From Pseudomonadota bacterium (lineage in GTDB: Bacteria; Pseudomonadota; Gammaproteobacteria; Acidiferrobacterales; Acidiferrobacteraceae), in NCBI GenBank assembly GCA_021795255.1, contig JAJYPQ010000182.1, positions 1 through 7,299 of the forward strand: a DNA stretch of 7,299 nucleotides. The letters run 5' to 3'. The position numbers and the translations under genes are program-made. Below, one piece after another: positions 224-4,269 of this stretch. Below the pieces are notes generated by a model. That model was not told the origin of the DNA. It searched no databases and was given only the letters and a program-made list of their open reading frames with translations. The first letter of the stretch is position 1. Every line of letters starts with the position of its first letter.

Positions 224-241
224 GGTAGTGTCTCAGTTTGA
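224..241 (+). repeat. Left terminal inverted repeat (IRL)
   Basis: GGTAGTGTCTCAGTTTGA is the exact reverse complement of 2682-2699 over all 18 bases. Beyond it the two ends diverge at once (A on the left, G on the right in outward-in reading). It marks the left end of the element. Confidence 0.95.
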
Positions 242-253
242 ATTTGAGAGATG

Positions 254-282
254 ATGTCAAATACGCCGCCCCGCGCTACAAT
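254..282 (+). promoter_or_regulatory. Candidate sigma70-type promoter of the passenger operon
   Basis: ATGTCA (254-259, 4 of 6 to TTGACA) and TACAAT (277-282, 5 of 6 to TATAAT) are separated by exactly 17 bases. The predicted start of transcription is about 288-290, on or beside the ATG at 289, so the first passenger gene would be read from a leaderless or nearly leaderless mRNA. No Shine-Dalgarno lies before that ATG, which is consistent. Inferred from hexamers only. Confidence 0.45.
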
Positions 283-288
283 CCGCGT

Positions 289-540
289 ATGTCTAACCGT
301 TCAAGTAAGCCCAAGAGACCGCGCGACCTCAGCCAACTTGCCAAGCGGATAGTGGATATATTGACCGGTGTGGTCGAGGATCAACCCCACGACGAAGGCA
401 AAAATCCTGCGGCTGTTGCCCTTGGCCATTTAGGAGGAAAGAAGGGTGGCAAAGCTAGGGCAGCAACGCTGAGCGCAAAAAGAAGGAAAGAAATAGCGGA
501 GGTAGCGGCACATAGCCGCTGGGGGAAGAAGCGTGGCTAA
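289..540 (+). CDS. Small basic GGKKGGKAR-motif protein, passenger gene 1 (histone/RNA-binding-like, function unknown)
   Basis: An 83-residue, strongly basic protein. Residues 9-24 (KRPRDLSQLAKRIVDI) and residues 46-78 (LGHLGGKKGGKARA then LSAKRRKEIAEVAAHSRW) match a widespread small-protein type that I remember being annotated variously as histone H1-like or RNA-binding; I do not know an experimentally proven function. The Gly/Lys-rich turn followed by an Arg/Lys helix resembles KGG-type motifs and suggests nucleic-acid contact, but that is inference. ATG 289 is chosen because family members typically begin just before the KRPRD segment, and because the frame upstream runs into the inverted repeat with only a TTG at 238. 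There is no Shine-Dalgarno. The 3' end overlaps the proteinase start by 8 bases, implying co-expression and translational coupling. No membrane segment or signal peptide. Confidence 0.8.
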   Translation: MSNRSSKPKRPRDLSQLAKRIVDILTGVVEDQPHDEGKNPAAVALGHLGGKKGGKARAATLSAKRRKEIAEVAAHSRWGKKRG

Positions 541-1417
541 CCTGGCCTTATTTGATAAGACTATTTTCGATGCGGTCAGTAAGAGCGAGCAGGAGATCGA
601 GAATAAGCTGGGATGCGATCTTTTGTATTTCTATGGCGATATACGCTCAGGCAGGCTGAGCTATTTTCGCAATTATGTTGAGAAGCTGGCAGCCCAAACC
701 AGCAAAAGGGAAACGCTTGGCATCTGCCTGACAACGCCCGGTGGCGAAGCGGAGGTCGTTGAGAAAATGGTAGATATCATTCGGTATCACTACCCTAACA
801 GGGTTTATTTCATTGTGCCTAGCGCTGCTTTGTCTGCCGGAACTATTTTTTGTATGTCAGGCGATAAAATTTACATGGACTACTCCTCCTCCTTAGGTCC
901 AATTGATCCACAGGTTCCGGACAAGGAAGGAAAATATTTGGTCCCAGCACTTGGATACCTGGACAAGGTGGAAGACCTTGTTCAAAAATCAAAAAATAAC
1001 ACTATATCTGCCGGCGAGTTAGCGATCTTAATAAGGCAAGATTTGGCCATGCTCCGTTTTTACGAGCAGGCTCGGGATTTGTCCAAGGCGCTGTTAAAAG
1101 ACTGGTTGACGAAATATAAATTCAAAGATTGGGCATTACACCGCACAAATAATCCAGGCACTCCCGTCACTCTAGACGAAAAGGAGGCTCGGGCGGATCA
1201 AATAGCTAAGCAGTTATCCGATAACAAGGTGTGGCACTCTCATGGTCGCATGATAGGTATGGATAAGCTTAGGGCGATGCTGCGCCTTGAAATAGACGAT
1301 TTTGGGACAGATACTTCATTGAGAGACAATATAAGGCTTTATAGCGACACCTTATCGGACTATTTGGGGCGTCACGGGTACGACTTTTTCATGCATAATC
1401 GGAATATTGGCCTTTGA
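533..1417 (+). CDS. SDH-family Clp-fold serine proteinase, passenger gene 2
   Basis: A 294-residue protein with the crotonase/ClpP-like fold of the SDH_protease family (formerly DUF114; relatives of ClpP and SppA). Visible landmarks: LTTPGGEAEVVEKMVDIIR (66-84), the oxyanion-type glycine turn and following helix; VPSAALSAGTIFCMSGDKIYM (95-115), where Ser101 in the SAGT motif is the likely nucleophile; SSSLGPIDPQV (118-128), the conserved LGPIDPQ segment with Asp125; and a C-terminal WHSHGRMIGMDKL stretch (234-246) whose His235/His237 are candidates for the general base. No signal peptide or membrane segment is apparent, so it should be cytosolic. The start is GTG at 533, preceded by GGGGAAGAAGC inside the end of gene 1; the 8-base overlap argues for coupling. 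Base composition is AT-rich beside ilvA. Substrate unknown. The proteolysis assignment is by family only, with no triad demonstrated here. Confidence 0.88.
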   Translation: MANLALFDKTIFDAVSKSEQEIENKLGCDLLYFYGDIRSGRLSYFRNYVEKLAAQTSKRETLGICLTTPGGEAEVVEKMVDIIRYHYPNRVYFIVPSAALSAGTIFCMSGDKIYMDYSSSLGPIDPQVPDKEGKYLVPALGYLDKVEDLVQKSKNNTISAGELAILIRQDLAMLRFYEQARDLSKALLKDWLTKYKFKDWALHRTNNPGTPVTLDEKEARADQIAKQLSDNKVWHSHGRMIGMDKLRAMLRLEIDDFGTDTSLRDNIRLYSDTLSDYLGRHGYDFFMHNRNIGL

Positions 1418-1418
1418 C

Positions 1419-1424
1419 AGGAGA
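1419..1424 (+). promoter_or_regulatory. Shine-Dalgarno of passenger gene 3
   Basis: AGGAGA with a 5-base spacer to ATG 1430. It is the clearest ribosome binding site in the element and is the main reason to accept the short 67-codon gene as real. Confidence 0.75.
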
Positions 1425-1429
1425 ATCTT

Positions 1430-1633
1430 ATGAGCCTCTCGGATGAATTGGTGCACCTAATTCCTGAAAAAAATCAAGAGGTTAGGTATAATAATGCCCA
1501 ATTAGAGTTGGCTGATGAAATTGAAAAGACACTGGAGACCGTAGGCATTCAGCTGCAACAACGTTTTGACATACCCCTTTCGGCGCGCATAACCTCTATG
1601 CCCATGAAAGTGACTGTTATACTTGACCGATAA
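1430..1633 (+). CDS. Unrecognised 67-residue protein, passenger gene 3
   Basis: I do not recognise this protein. It starts at ATG 1430, eight bases after the end of a strong Shine-Dalgarno sequence AGGAGA... (1419-1424, 5 bases of spacing to the ATG), and only 12 bases after the proteinase stop, so it belongs to the same operon. Residues 1-35 are acidic and likely helical (SDELVHLIPEKNQEVRYNN, then LELADEIEKTLE). The C-terminal third (about 46-67, ending KVTVILDR) looks like two beta strands. There is no membrane segment or cysteine pair. The good ribosome binding site and AT-rich codon use shared with the proteinase support real translation. A partner, inhibitor or adaptor of the proteinase is conceivable, but nothing in the sequence proves it. 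The last codons overlap the candidate transposase promoter. Confidence 0.72.
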   Translation: MSLSDELVHLIPEKNQEVRYNNAQLELADEIEKTLETVGIQLQQRFDIPLSARITSMPMKVTVILDR

Positions 1634-1651
1634 AGCATAGCATGGTTTAAA
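1623..1651 (+). promoter_or_regulatory. Candidate sigma70-type promoter of the transposase
   Basis: TTGACC (1623-1628, 5 of 6) and TTTAAA (1646-1651, 4 of 6) with a 17-base spacer, beginning inside the last codons of passenger gene 3. Transcription would start near 1658-1659, at the transposase ATG, again giving a leaderless or almost leaderless message. This would give the transposase a supply independent of the passenger operon. Hexamer-based inference only. Confidence 0.45.
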
Positions 1652-1658
1652 TGGGGGC

Positions 1659-2690
1659 ATGAACCGCCTCCCTATTTCTATTCGCACGCAAATCTTAGGC
1701 CTTCTCGTCGAAGGCAACAGTATGCGTGCCACGTCCCGGCTGGCGGGTGCGAGCATTAATACCGTGACCAAGTTGCTGGTGGACGTGGGAACCGCTTGCA
1801 GTGAGTACCAAGACCAGGCCTTTCGAAATCTCCCCTGTAAGCGCATCCAGTGTGACAATATCTGGTCTTTCTGCGCCATGAAAGAAAAGAGCGTCTCGGA
1901 AGAAAAGCATAGAATGATAGGGCTAGGTGACGTTTATACCTGGACCGCGATCTGTGCCGATACCAAGCTTGTCCCGAGTTTCCTGATTGGTCACCAGGAT
2001 GCATCCTTTGCAAAGATCTTTGTGGAAGATCTGGCGGGACGGCTCGCAAACCGCGTCCAGCTCACCACAGATGGCCACAAGCCCTATCTGCAAGCCGTAG
2101 AGACTAGCTTCGGGGCCAACGTAGACTATGCCATGCCGGTGAAGTTTTACGGCGAGGCACAAGGAAAATCGGCGGAGCGCAAATTTAGCCCAGGGCAGTG
2201 TTTTGGGGCGGTTAAGGGAGCGGTTTGCGGTAGTCCTGAGGAAGCCCCTATCTCCACGAGCTATGTAGAGCGTCAGAACCTTACCATGCGGATGGGGATG
2301 CGCCGCTTCGCGCGACCGACCAATGGATTCAGCAAAAAGATCGAGAACCTAGAACACGCCGTGGCGCTGCACTTCATGTATTACAACTTCGGGCGTATCC
2401 AGAAGACCCTGCGGGTGACCCCGGCGATGGAAGCGGGGGTATCGGATCATGCATGGTCCTTGGAAGAGATTGCGGCGCTAACCGATCCGCACCTCGTCGT
2501 GTCGAGAAGTGTATGGACGGTTACGTGGGAACAGGGGGGCTTTTCGTTCGGCCCGCAGTATGAGGCCGATGCACTAGCTTACGCTCTGGATCTTCTCAAA
2601 GGAGGCAAGAAAGTTTACAGCATTTCGCGCGGCAATTCGGTCATTTACAGTGAAACCGACATCGTAAAGAAACTACAGGGCTCAAACTGA
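1659..2690 (+). CDS. IS1-family-like DDE transposase
   Basis: A 343-residue transposase with no frameshift. Residues 1-45 form a helix-turn-helix (ILGLLVEGNSMRATSRLAGA, then SINTVTKLLVDVG) for end binding. The catalytic core shows the expected acidic residues: Asp66 in IQCDNIWSF, Asp138 in QLTTDGHKPYL, and Glu204 in TSYVERQNLTMRM, followed by the HFMYYNFGRIQKTLRVTPAMEAG block (238-260) typical of these proteins. The usual VDEIW is CDNIW here, so the residue after the first Asp is Asn instead of Glu. Residues from about 276 to 343 form an extension (strand WTVTW, helix EADALAYALDLLKGG, strand KVYSIS) beyond the conserved core. The ATG at 1659 has GGGGG only 2-3 bases upstream, a poor ribosome site spacing. 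The stop codon (2688-2690) lies inside the right inverted repeat, so the gene's end and the element's end are fused. It looks intact and potentially active. Confidence 0.9.
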   Translation: MNRLPISIRTQILGLLVEGNSMRATSRLAGASINTVTKLLVDVGTACSEYQDQAFRNLPCKRIQCDNIWSFCAMKEKSVSEEKHRMIGLGDVYTWTAICADTKLVPSFLIGHQDASFAKIFVEDLAGRLANRVQLTTDGHKPYLQAVETSFGANVDYAMPVKFYGEAQGKSAERKFSPGQCFGAVKGAVCGSPEEAPISTSYVERQNLTMRMGMRRFARPTNGFSKKIENLEHAVALHFMYYNFGRIQKTLRVTPAMEAGVSDHAWSLEEIAALTDPHLVVSRSVWTVTWEQGGFSFGPQYEADALAYALDLLKGGKKVYSISRGNSVIYSETDIVKKLQGSN

Positions 2691-2699
2691 GACACTACC
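2682..2699 (-). repeat. Right terminal inverted repeat (IRR)
   Basis: The reverse complement of this segment equals the left repeat at 224-241 in all 18 positions. The last three codons of the transposase (Ser, Asn and stop, in part) run into it. It marks the right end of the element. Confidence 0.95.
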
Positions 2700-2763: not shown

Positions 2764-4269
2764 ATGACACGCAACTATCTCAAACGCATCCTGGGTTCTC
2801 GCGTCTATGATGTCGCCATCGAAAGCCCGCTTACGGTGGCGGCCGGACTGTCGCGCCGCCTAGGGCGCTCGGTACTCCTAAAGCGCGAGGACATGCAGCC
2901 CGTGTTCTCGTTCAAGCTTCGTGGCGCGTACAACAAAATGGCCCATCTTGACCCTGAGGAACGAGCGCTCGGGGTCATCACCGCATCCGCCGGAAATCAC
3001 GCCCAAGGCGTGGCGCTCGCCGCTCGCCGGCTCGCGATCCGCGCCGTTATCGTGATGCCCACAATGGCCCCCCAAATCAAGGTCGATGCGGTACGGGAAC
3101 TCGGCGCGGAGGTCGTGCTGTGCGGCGAAAACTATGATGCCGCCTATGCCCATGCGCGCTACCTCAGCGCGGAACACAAACTGCCCTTTATCCATCCCTA
3201 CGACGACCCCGATGTCATCGCAGGCCAGGGTACGATCGGAATGGAGATCCTGAAGCAACACCCCGCGGATATCGAGGCGATCTTCGTTCCGGTGGGCGGG
3301 GGCGGGCTCATCGCTGGGGTCGCGGCTTACGTCAAGGCCCTGCGACCGCAAATCCGAATCGTGGCCGTCGAACCGATGGACGCCGACGCGTTCGCCCGGT
3401 CACTCAAACTGGGTACGCGCGTGACCCTCGACAAGGTCGGAACGTTCGCCGACGGGGTCGCCGTCCGCCAAGTCGGACAGGAGCCTTTTCGCATCGCTCG
3501 CCGCTTGGTCGACGAGGCCTTAGTAGTGAGCAATGATGCCATCTGCGCCGCCATAAAAGACATCTTCGAAGACACGCGCTCGATCGTTGAGCCCTCCGGG
3601 GCGCTGGCCGTTGCCGGCCTCAAGGCCTACGCCGCGCGCCACGCGACGTCCGGGACCCTGGTGGCTATCACCTCGGGCGCCAATATGAACTTCGACCGGC
3701 TAAGGCACGTGGCGGAACGGGCCGAAATCGGGGAGCGCCGCGAGTTCCTTTTTGCCGCCACCATCCCGGAGACACCGGGAAGCTTCCGCAAGTTTTGCGC
3801 CATCATAGGCCAGCGGAACATCACCGAATTCAACTACCGGTTTGCCGATAGCCGTGTAGCCCATGTGTTCGTGGGAATTCAGGTGCCGGTGGGCGAGGGC
3901 GCGCACGACCTTCTCGCGTCTCTCGCGACACACGGGTACGAGGTGCTCGATCTGACCGACAACGAGATGGCCAAACTCCATATTCGCCACCTGGTCGGCG
4001 GTCGCTGCCCGGTCGACGACGAACTGATCTACCGTTTCGAATTTCCGGATCGCCCGGGCGCACTGATGAACTTTCTCAACGCCATGGGAGAGACCTGGAA
4101 CATCAGCCTCTTTCATTACCGCAACCACGGGGCCGATTACGGCCGGGTGTTGGTCGGTATGCAGGTGCCCATGGCGGAACGCGGGCGGCTCCCGGCGTTT
4201 CTTGAGGCGCTCGGGATCGACTACCAGGAAGAAACCGACAACGCCGCCTACCGGCTCTTTTTGCGCTAA
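2764..4269 (+). CDS. ilvA: Threonine ammonia-lyase, biosynthetic (threonine deaminase)
   Basis: A PLP enzyme that deaminates threonine to 2-oxobutanoate, the first committed step to isoleucine. Its 501 residues match the long biosynthetic form. Catalytic domain, residues about 1-320: PVFSFKLRGAYNKM, with Lys51 as the PLP Schiff-base lysine; SAGNHAQGVALAA (75-87), contacting substrate and cofactor; PVGGGGLIAG (176-185), the PLP phosphate loop; and TSGANMNFDRLR (303-313). The C-terminal part, about 326-501, holds two ACT-like regulatory subdomains: FLFAATIPETPGSFRKF (328-344) with ITEFNYRF, and YRFEFPDRPGALMNFL (423-438) with ISLFHYRNHGADYGRVLVG. This architecture in the family gives isoleucine inhibition and valine activation. 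ATG 2764 is preceded by only a weak AGG. The gene is divergent from rpiA as in many gammaproteobacteria, now split from it by the element, and converges with the minus-strand operon. Confidence 0.96.
   Translation: MTRNYLKRILGSRVYDVAIESPLTVAAGLSRRLGRSVLLKREDMQPVFSFKLRGAYNKMAHLDPEERALGVITASAGNHAQGVALAARRLAIRAVIVMPTMAPQIKVDAVRELGAEVVLCGENYDAAYAHARYLSAEHKLPFIHPYDDPDVIAGQGTIGMEILKQHPADIEAIFVPVGGGGLIAGVAAYVKALRPQIRIVAVEPMDADAFARSLKLGTRVTLDKVGTFADGVAVRQVGQEPFRIARRLVDEALVVSNDAICAAIKDIFEDTRSIVEPSGALAVAGLKAYAARHATSGTLVAITSGANMNFDRLRHVAERAEIGERREFLFAATIPETPGSFRKFCAIIGQRNITEFNYRFADSRVAHVFVGIQVPVGEGAHDLLASLATHGYEVLDLTDNEMAKLHIRHLVGGRCPVDDELIYRFEFPDRPGALMNFLNAMGETWNISLFHYRNHGADYGRVLVGMQVPMAERGRLPAFLEALGIDYQEETDNAAYRLFLR

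Follow-up and report, generated by a model that had tools for sequence, protein, structure and literature searches.

A protease-carrying IS1-like element and its relatives with a conserved small gene and variable cargo

The 7,299-nucleotide stretch analysed here (the window; positions 1 to 7,299 of contig JAJYPQ010000182.1, GenBank assembly GCA_021795255.1, from a gammaproteobacterium of the Acidiferrobacteraceae) contains a 2476-bp unit, at positions 224–2699, that we take with good confidence, for the explanation as a whole, to be a complete cargo-bearing IS1-like element, or transporter insertion sequence (IS). The unit has one transposase, inverted repeats around it and passenger genes unrelated to transposition, as expected of a transporter IS. 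All four of its open frames lie on the + strand, encoding, in order, a small basic protein designated KGG (positions 289–540), an SDH-type protease of ClpP/SppA fold (533–1417), a 67-aa protease partner (1430–1633) and an IS1-like DDE transposase (1659–2690). Comparison with relatives indicates that a group of such elements carries several kinds of cargo, of which the protease pair is one, while the KGG gene and the transposase are conserved.

Ends and bounded relatives

The 18-nt arms at 224–241 (+ strand, GGTAGTGTCTCAGTTTGA) and 2682–2699 (− strand) are 100% complementary, in agreement with the first-pass annotation, which had reported perfect repeats enclosing a transposase and other genes. 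The repeat is not due to chance, because relatives with perfect 8-bp target duplications, for instance at loci L081 and L167, end in exactly this 18-mer at both sides. A chance inverted repeat was also ruled out by the controls with shifted duplications and shuffled sequences given below. The flanks of the window unit, GGACGGTA (216–223) and GGGCGGCA (2700–2707), agree at 6 of 8 positions (P ~0.007 for random 8-mers of the flanks); since only six positions match, this candidate target duplication is either decayed or absent.

In total, 64 full-length relatives, of 1852–5278 bp, were bounded by similar ends and exact 8-bp duplications, in hosts that include Alphaproteobacteria, Gammaproteobacteria and Acidobacteriota. 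Each of them contains at least 1027 bp beyond the transposase match, and there is no copy of bare-IS length among them. The bounding search looked for 16-bp inverted arms starting with GG, with up to four mismatches, next to an exact 8-bp duplication, and bounded 51 of 77 loci, i.e. 49 full-length elements and two short derivatives. When the duplication was shifted by 1, 3 or 5 nt, 2, 1 and 0 of the 77 loci were bounded, and shuffled sequences gave 1/385; judging from these controls, one or two of the 51 bounded loci could be false. Some of the 26 loci that were not bounded, which include L084, are contig ends or decayed copies, and statements on length are restricted to bounded copies because of these 26. 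The short derivatives, L195 (positions 6919–7931 of its locus, 1013 bp) and L196 (544 bp), show matching ends and exact 8-bp duplications around only a transposase remnant, which movement in trans or a deletion following insertion might explain.

A more distant set, counted without a separate control, added 15 elements: 13 of 20 acidobacterial loci (transposase identity 40–48%; seven unbounded), all of 2.1–4.4 kb, and two of four gammaproteobacterial loci. In the search for bare relatives with distant transposases, L188, L189 and L197 (36–47% identity) could not be bounded; in the distant set we also tried any ends with 8–10 bp duplications close to the transposase and found none. Extra genes thus appear to be the rule in the IS1-like group with these ends. 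The first-pass annotation had called a protease-centred cargo unfamiliar in an IS1-type element; the protease cargo itself was confirmed, and extra genes as such are usual here, every bounded full-length relative having those 1027 bp or more outside the transposase match.

The usual layout in relatives is left end, KGG gene, cargo, transposase and right end, and some relatives also have cargo to the right of the transposase. At E 0.001, transposase matches occurred in 36 of 289 genomes of the class of L107 (an alphaproteobacterium), 91 of 200 sampled genomes of the class of L082 (an acidobacterium), 10 of 274 genomes of the class of a Pseudomonas and 6 of 57 genomes of the order to which G503 belongs (its ilvA is the closest); these counts include fragments as well as partial and distant IS1-like matches, and regions were extracted for many of the better matches. 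Eleven plasmids of the plasmid collection matched element DNA, none over more than 80% of its length.

Transposase and resemblance to IS1

The 343-aa transposase shares residues D66, D138 and E204 with all other members of a 50-sequence alignment (50/50), and these likely form the catalytic triad. It matched the IS1 model NF033558 with E 9e-11 and 42.1 bits, below the curated cut-off of 100, and PF03400 with a score of 18.2, below the cut-off of 24.1. The transposase of L001 is annotated as IS1 family in its record. IS1 elements end in GGnnnTG and duplicate 8–9 bp of target; the window end, GGTAGTG, fits this consensus, as do 51 of 51 tallied left ends, the search itself requiring the GG. The distant set contains an exception, L303, whose ends read GGTAGTC. 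Target duplications were exact over 8 bp in the relatives, as required by the controlled search, and 6/8 in the window. The best relatives match about 80% of the window transposase, roughly residues 1–276. Its last ~67 residues (window 2487–2690) were unmatched in the relatives seen and have no Pfam match; they are possibly a fused small gene.

KGG, a conserved gene of the group

The KGG gene, named from a GGxxGGxARA motif, lies in frame 238–540; the ATG at 289, taken as its start, is base 66 of the element and gives a protein of 83 aa. Homologues occur in 47 of the 49 full-length elements of the closer bounded set. In 41 of these the gene is an open reading frame (ORF) of 61–109 aa on the strand of the transposase, starting at bases 63–76 of the element in 22 cases and at bases 5 to 932 in the others; five elements have it on the other strand (49–94 aa), and L182 contains it only as a motif inside a longer P63C protein. 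L184 and L258 are without a homologue.

As the members used for the KGG profile had been chosen by motif from the same elements, we tested the association genome-wide. Among 289 genomes, there were 22 near-full-length KGG matches in 21 genomes, all 21 of them transposase-positive, compared with 36/289 overall (hypergeometric 1e-22), and 18 of the 22 matches had a transposase match no more than 5 kb away on their own contig. We read the KGG gene as a core gene of the closer element group. The first-pass annotation had counted the small basic gene as cargo, which we rejected in view of its presence in 47/49 closer elements and its co-occurrence with the transposase across genomes. The window protein matched no Pfam family, and a PDB search with the KGG profile returned nothing better than E 1.1. 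InsA of IS1 is a DNA-binding regulator and, by analogy, the KGG protein perhaps has a similar role. Separately, a GG-x-ARA...EIA..AA-like motif in P63C-domain cargo proteins (L182, L190 and L229) is similar to the end of the KGG protein.

Exchange of cargo between elements

Comparison of close relatives showed, at the sequence level, that cargo varies while the KGG gene and the transposase stay homologous. L229 has the transposase nearest to that of the window (72% identity), and DNA homology between the two elements covers the left end with the KGG gene (71%) and the transposase (73%), with none in between; the cargo of L229 is of P63C type, unlike that of the window. Similarly, L186 and L187, from the same genome, are 78–79% alike in the left part and the transposase and differ in cargo, an AlbA_2/HATPase protein in the first and an nSTAND protein in the second.

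On a transposase tree of 65 rows, the number of changes equalled the number of rows for the SDH protease (six), proteasome-like peptidases (seven), the PD-Lambda-2-like pair (four), P63C (four) and RmrA-like cargo (three), and for all five types equalled the count obtained with shuffled labels. If starred branches only are counted, 4, 3, 3, 4 and 2 changes are required, respectively. On the protease tree, from which ten near-identical or truncated viral loci and L001 had been dropped, as for the partner counts below, the seven IS-borne rows need seven changes.

Cargo repertoire

Cargo was typed with Pfam and PADLOC, and the proteasome-like cluster by blastp. PADLOC matches comprised RosmerTA RmrA (L166, L183), PD-Lambda-2_B (L171, L172, L177 and L246; L171, whose duplication is not exact, has a HigB-like toxin alongside), SoFic (L255) and a HEC-04 AAA protein (L232). 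Anti-phage action is known for RosmerTA, PD-Lambda-2 and SoFic. Restriction-modification cargo was found in L084 (BglII-type restriction enzyme and methylase; PADLOC REase_II), L239 (MmeI-type) and L247 (a methylase with an Mrr-like end just below the cut-off; PADLOC MTase_II). Further cargo proteins carry BRO-N (L179, L251; in L179 additionally PADLOC PDC-S13), AlbA_2 (L186, where the match to pAgo models is partial and may mislead), nSTAND1 (L187), P63C (L182, L190, L229), DUF3800 (L252) or trypsin-like (L248) domains, and L185 has an HTH protein with a Gp49-like toxin.

Proteasome-like (Ntn) peptidases, a second peptidase fold unrelated to the SDH protease, recur as cargo in seven acidobacterial elements that form one blastp cluster (L237, L239, L240, L241, L250, L258 and L260), scoring above the cut-off in L240, L241, L250 and L258. 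L084 (164–4938) has two cargo modules, the BglII-type pair and an SDH protease pair, adjoining a decayed transposase.

The cargo might be passive DNA trapped between the ends by chance and of no benefit to the element. Many cargo ORFs without a family agree with this, as do L257, with no cargo ORF of at least 60 aa beside the KGG gene and transposase, and L238, with none of 100 aa. We nevertheless consider hitchhiking improbable, since the same cargo types recur on scattered transposases: proteasome-like peptidases in seven elements, the SDH protease in five plus the window and L084, the PD-Lambda-2-like pair in four, P63C in four and RmrA-like cargo in three. In addition, gene pairs or trios recur jointly (L172/L177/L246/L305, L166/L183, L179/L251 and L185/L286).

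The protease and its partner

The window protease, of 294 aa, matched PF01972 with 42.2 bits (E 6.5e-11; cut-off 31.3), and scored 51.4 bits against the NCBIfam equivalog NF047768, whose cut-off of 250 was not reached. Its structural model is confident (pLDDT 89.7), and Foldseek returned SppA (E 1.6e-6) and 1510-N (9e-6) with modest TM-scores of 0.43–0.59; the profile match to 1510-N (E 1.5e-4) covers the region holding the serine. All members of a 28-sequence alignment have S101 and K145, which are probably a Ser-Lys dyad, as judged from invariance and spacing, by which alone K145, outside the part aligned to 1510-N, was assigned.

The family is large: 7195 of 8000 candidates, the number scored in each of two homologue searches, matched at E 1e-3 or better, and the best 80 of the 412 relatives from a genome scan with the 28-sequence alignment were taken. 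Of 108 protease loci, seven matched the window transposase at E 1e-5 or better. Five of these are bounded by like ends and exact 8-bp duplications, namely L001 (CTCGGCTT), L034 (GATGCGTC), L081 (TAAAAGTC), L095 (GTGGAGCG) and L107 (TCACGCTG). L084, with its decayed transposase, showed ends and an exact duplication (GACCGGTA) in a looser search and failed the stricter one, and L103 is at a contig end. The proposal that the protease is cargo of an IS1-like element is thus borne out by like-ended relatives that carry it with exact duplications; in L034, L081, L095 and L107, the same kind of genes lies between like ends at unrelated loci. In a Methylosinus plasmid (L004, 4773–6300), a KGG-like fragment, a protease and a small gene stand with a transposase match that is weak and 21 residues long; this may be a decayed element.

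An ORF of 45–95 aa follows the protease on the same strand in 91 of 98 distinct loci, compared with 155 of 724 other long ORFs. The motif DT[ILV]G occurs near the end of 42 of these 91 ORFs, compared with 1 of 169 small ORFs of this kind located behind other genes; in the alignment its context is G-x-x-x-K-x-x-Y-x-L-P-x-x-D-T-I-G, of which the window has a divergent version. The partner alignment contains 38 of 75 ORFs, picked with the help of the motif score, and the motif was recounted without selection for this reason. We interpret the 67-aa protein as belonging, in divergent form, to the family of protease partners. The first-pass annotation had called it an orphan, which the small ORF at 91/98 loci and the partner motif led us to reject. 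It was modelled as one helix (residues 3–38) with a flexible tail, at low confidence (pTM 0.35). In the PDB, the partner profile matched mainly repeat-rich helical proteins (PPR, E 7e-16 at best, although no individual stretch passed), which was taken as helix bias.

We also weighed whether the protease serves the element by setting the level of transposase or KGG protein through proteolysis. The window, L034, L081, L095 and L107 share the same-strand order KGG, protease, partner and transposase, as such a role would allow. However, the pair is common without this transposase (the seven matches in 108 loci), most bounded elements are without the protease, and in L001 and several other elements the cargo is opposite to the transposase. 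The first two points led us to disfavour regulation of the transposase by the protease, suggested at first pass, and we regard a service to the element as quite improbable.

Partial matches to the protease were found in seven phage records, none over more than 80% of the query. Most of the protease pair was present in 17 of 5426 Escherichia coli genomes, and only the partner portion of the pair in two more. In all four E. coli records inspected, the pair lies directly after the LexA/CI-type repressor of a lambdoid prophage immunity region, the place that rexAB occupies in lambda (PMC12894663, available text). In a Rhizobium gallicum plasmid (L003, 2045–6070), a distant SDH protease and a small downstream gene follow multiubiquitin, ThiF and DUF6527 genes, an order that suggests a link with bacterial ubiquitin-like conjugation.

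Insertion site

The unit lies between the start of rpiA (2–124, − strand) and ilvA (2764–4269, + strand). Among 274 gammaproteobacterial genomes, 254 had an ilvA match, and the ilvA loci of the best 12 were fetched. In 11 of these the two genes are divergent, with 77–293 bp between them; in the twelfth, G503, no rpiA was seen beside ilvA. In the window they are 2639 bp apart, or 163 bp once the element is subtracted. The G+C content is 0.46 for the protease gene and 0.43 for the partner, as compared with 0.54 for the KGG and transposase genes.

An old protease operon resident at the rpiA–ilvA junction, beside which a transposase later arrived, is hardly credible: the 11 related genomes leave no room for genes there, both ends of the unit match the termini of relatives exactly, and we found no point in its favour. 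Occurrence of the three genes at this junction without a transposase, which would have spoken against an element, was not seen, the site being empty in those 11 genomes.

Possible function of the protease pair and of the group

Phage defence is the most likely function of the pair, because of its prophage position after the repressor and its company as cargo, and addiction is the next most likely. We give roughly even chances to the protease and its helix-and-tail partner forming a stand-alone anti-phage or abortive-infection module. In such a module, the partner would keep the protease inactive or sense infection, and the protease, upon release, would cleave a phage or host protein. For the element itself, the transposase would act at the ends and move the whole unit; the small, basic KGG protein, encoded near the left end, might bind the ends or the transposase and tune or help transposition; and defence cargo would pay for the upkeep of the element by protecting the host.

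Alternatively, the pair could be a toxin-antitoxin module that stabilises the element by addiction. It consists of two closely spaced genes on the same strand, the second small; HigB- or Gp49-like toxins stand beside HTH proteins in other elements (L171, L185), and toxin-antitoxin pairs are reported to be integral to Tn3-family transposons (PMC7157771, available text). We consider addiction instead of defence rather unlikely, though a serious contender, because the prophage spot after the repressor is the place of the lambda exclusion genes; the two functions are not exclusive.

For the group as a whole, we tentatively propose, at somewhat less than even chances, that IS1-like elements whose ends are of GGTAGTG type are a large clade of miniature mobile defence carriers, in which a dedicated KGG accessory protein and the transposase would frame a docking site for compact immune or toxin-antitoxin modules, swapped repeatedly, and stand-alone ClpP/SppA-like peptidases (with a helix-tail partner) and proteasome-like ones would recur as cores of undescribed defence systems. 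Several points weigh against our main explanation, that of a cargo-bearing IS1-like element with putative defence cargo. The window copy is only putatively mobile, its own duplication being only 6/8, and IS1 membership is judged from matches under curated cut-offs. Full-length KGG genes were found in the distant set only in L305 and L306, and are absent from 13/15; 15 weaker partial KGG matches, left uncounted, include five transposase-negative genomes (G011, G090, G101, G254 and G263), and the KGG profile had the motif-based origin noted above. Both trees are quick, with many weak branches, and the starred branches alone give just four SDH changes. Neither the protease nor the partner matched a PADLOC family up to E 1. 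When 20 cargo proteins were tried singly in PADLOC, 11 matched at 1e-5 and nine did not; many of the cargo ORFs are without a Pfam family, no cargo was recognised in several elements, and L257 and L238 lack longer cargo ORFs altogether. An enrichment of defence genes among the cargo is thus an impression drawn from strong examples rather than from statistics.

Comparison with known systems

The open literature available to us, whose coverage leaves out the main review and ISfinder, gives no account of an IS1-like cargo group or of an anti-phage role of SDH proteases. ISfinder presumably lists IS1-family members of up to several kb (the ISMhu11 group), and some elements of our group may be catalogued there already.

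The elements resemble single-ORF members of the IS1 family in the record name of L001, the match to NF033558 (E 9e-11), the GGTAGTG ends and the 8-bp duplications of relatives. They differ from them in their size of 2–5 kb, of which 1 kb or more lies outside the transposase in each full-length copy that was bounded, in the KGG gene near the left end of most closer copies, and in not reaching the curated IS1 cut-off.

Transporter IS are best known from IS1595. They share with our group a single transposase, inverted ends and passengers unrelated to transposition; our elements, however, are not scattered single cases but an entire clade, in which an additional core gene is conserved, the cargo is exchangeable and none of the bounded copies is bare. 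An IS with passenger genes is an established concept (PMC3129680, PMC7986276, available text), and Tn7-like transposons carry variable cargo including defence systems (PMC8649781, available text). Tn7-like transposons are likewise mobile units with such cargo, whereas the elements described here are far smaller, with one IS1-like transposase and mostly one or two cargo modules.

The protease pair recalls rexAB of lambda and further prophage exclusion genes linked to a repressor in its position after a LexA/CI-type repressor in 4/4 E. coli records, but no sequence relation to them was seen, none having been looked for, and we know of no exclusion phenotype for the pair. The protease has the fold of SppA, NfeD 1510-N and ClpP, as far as modest Foldseek TM-scores indicate, and differs from them by a helical C-terminal part and a partner protein.

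Cargo-bearing IS are thus known, as are Tn7-like transposons with defence cargo; an IS1-like group with a KGG gene and swappable cargo appears, as far as the literature covered goes, to be new. If the proposal is correct, an IS family usually regarded as minimal includes a common branch whose members bear cargo and move small defence modules, the slot between the KGG gene and the transposase would be a practical hunting place for unknown defence genes, and KGG, a family of small proteins not represented in Pfam, would be a candidate transposition factor.

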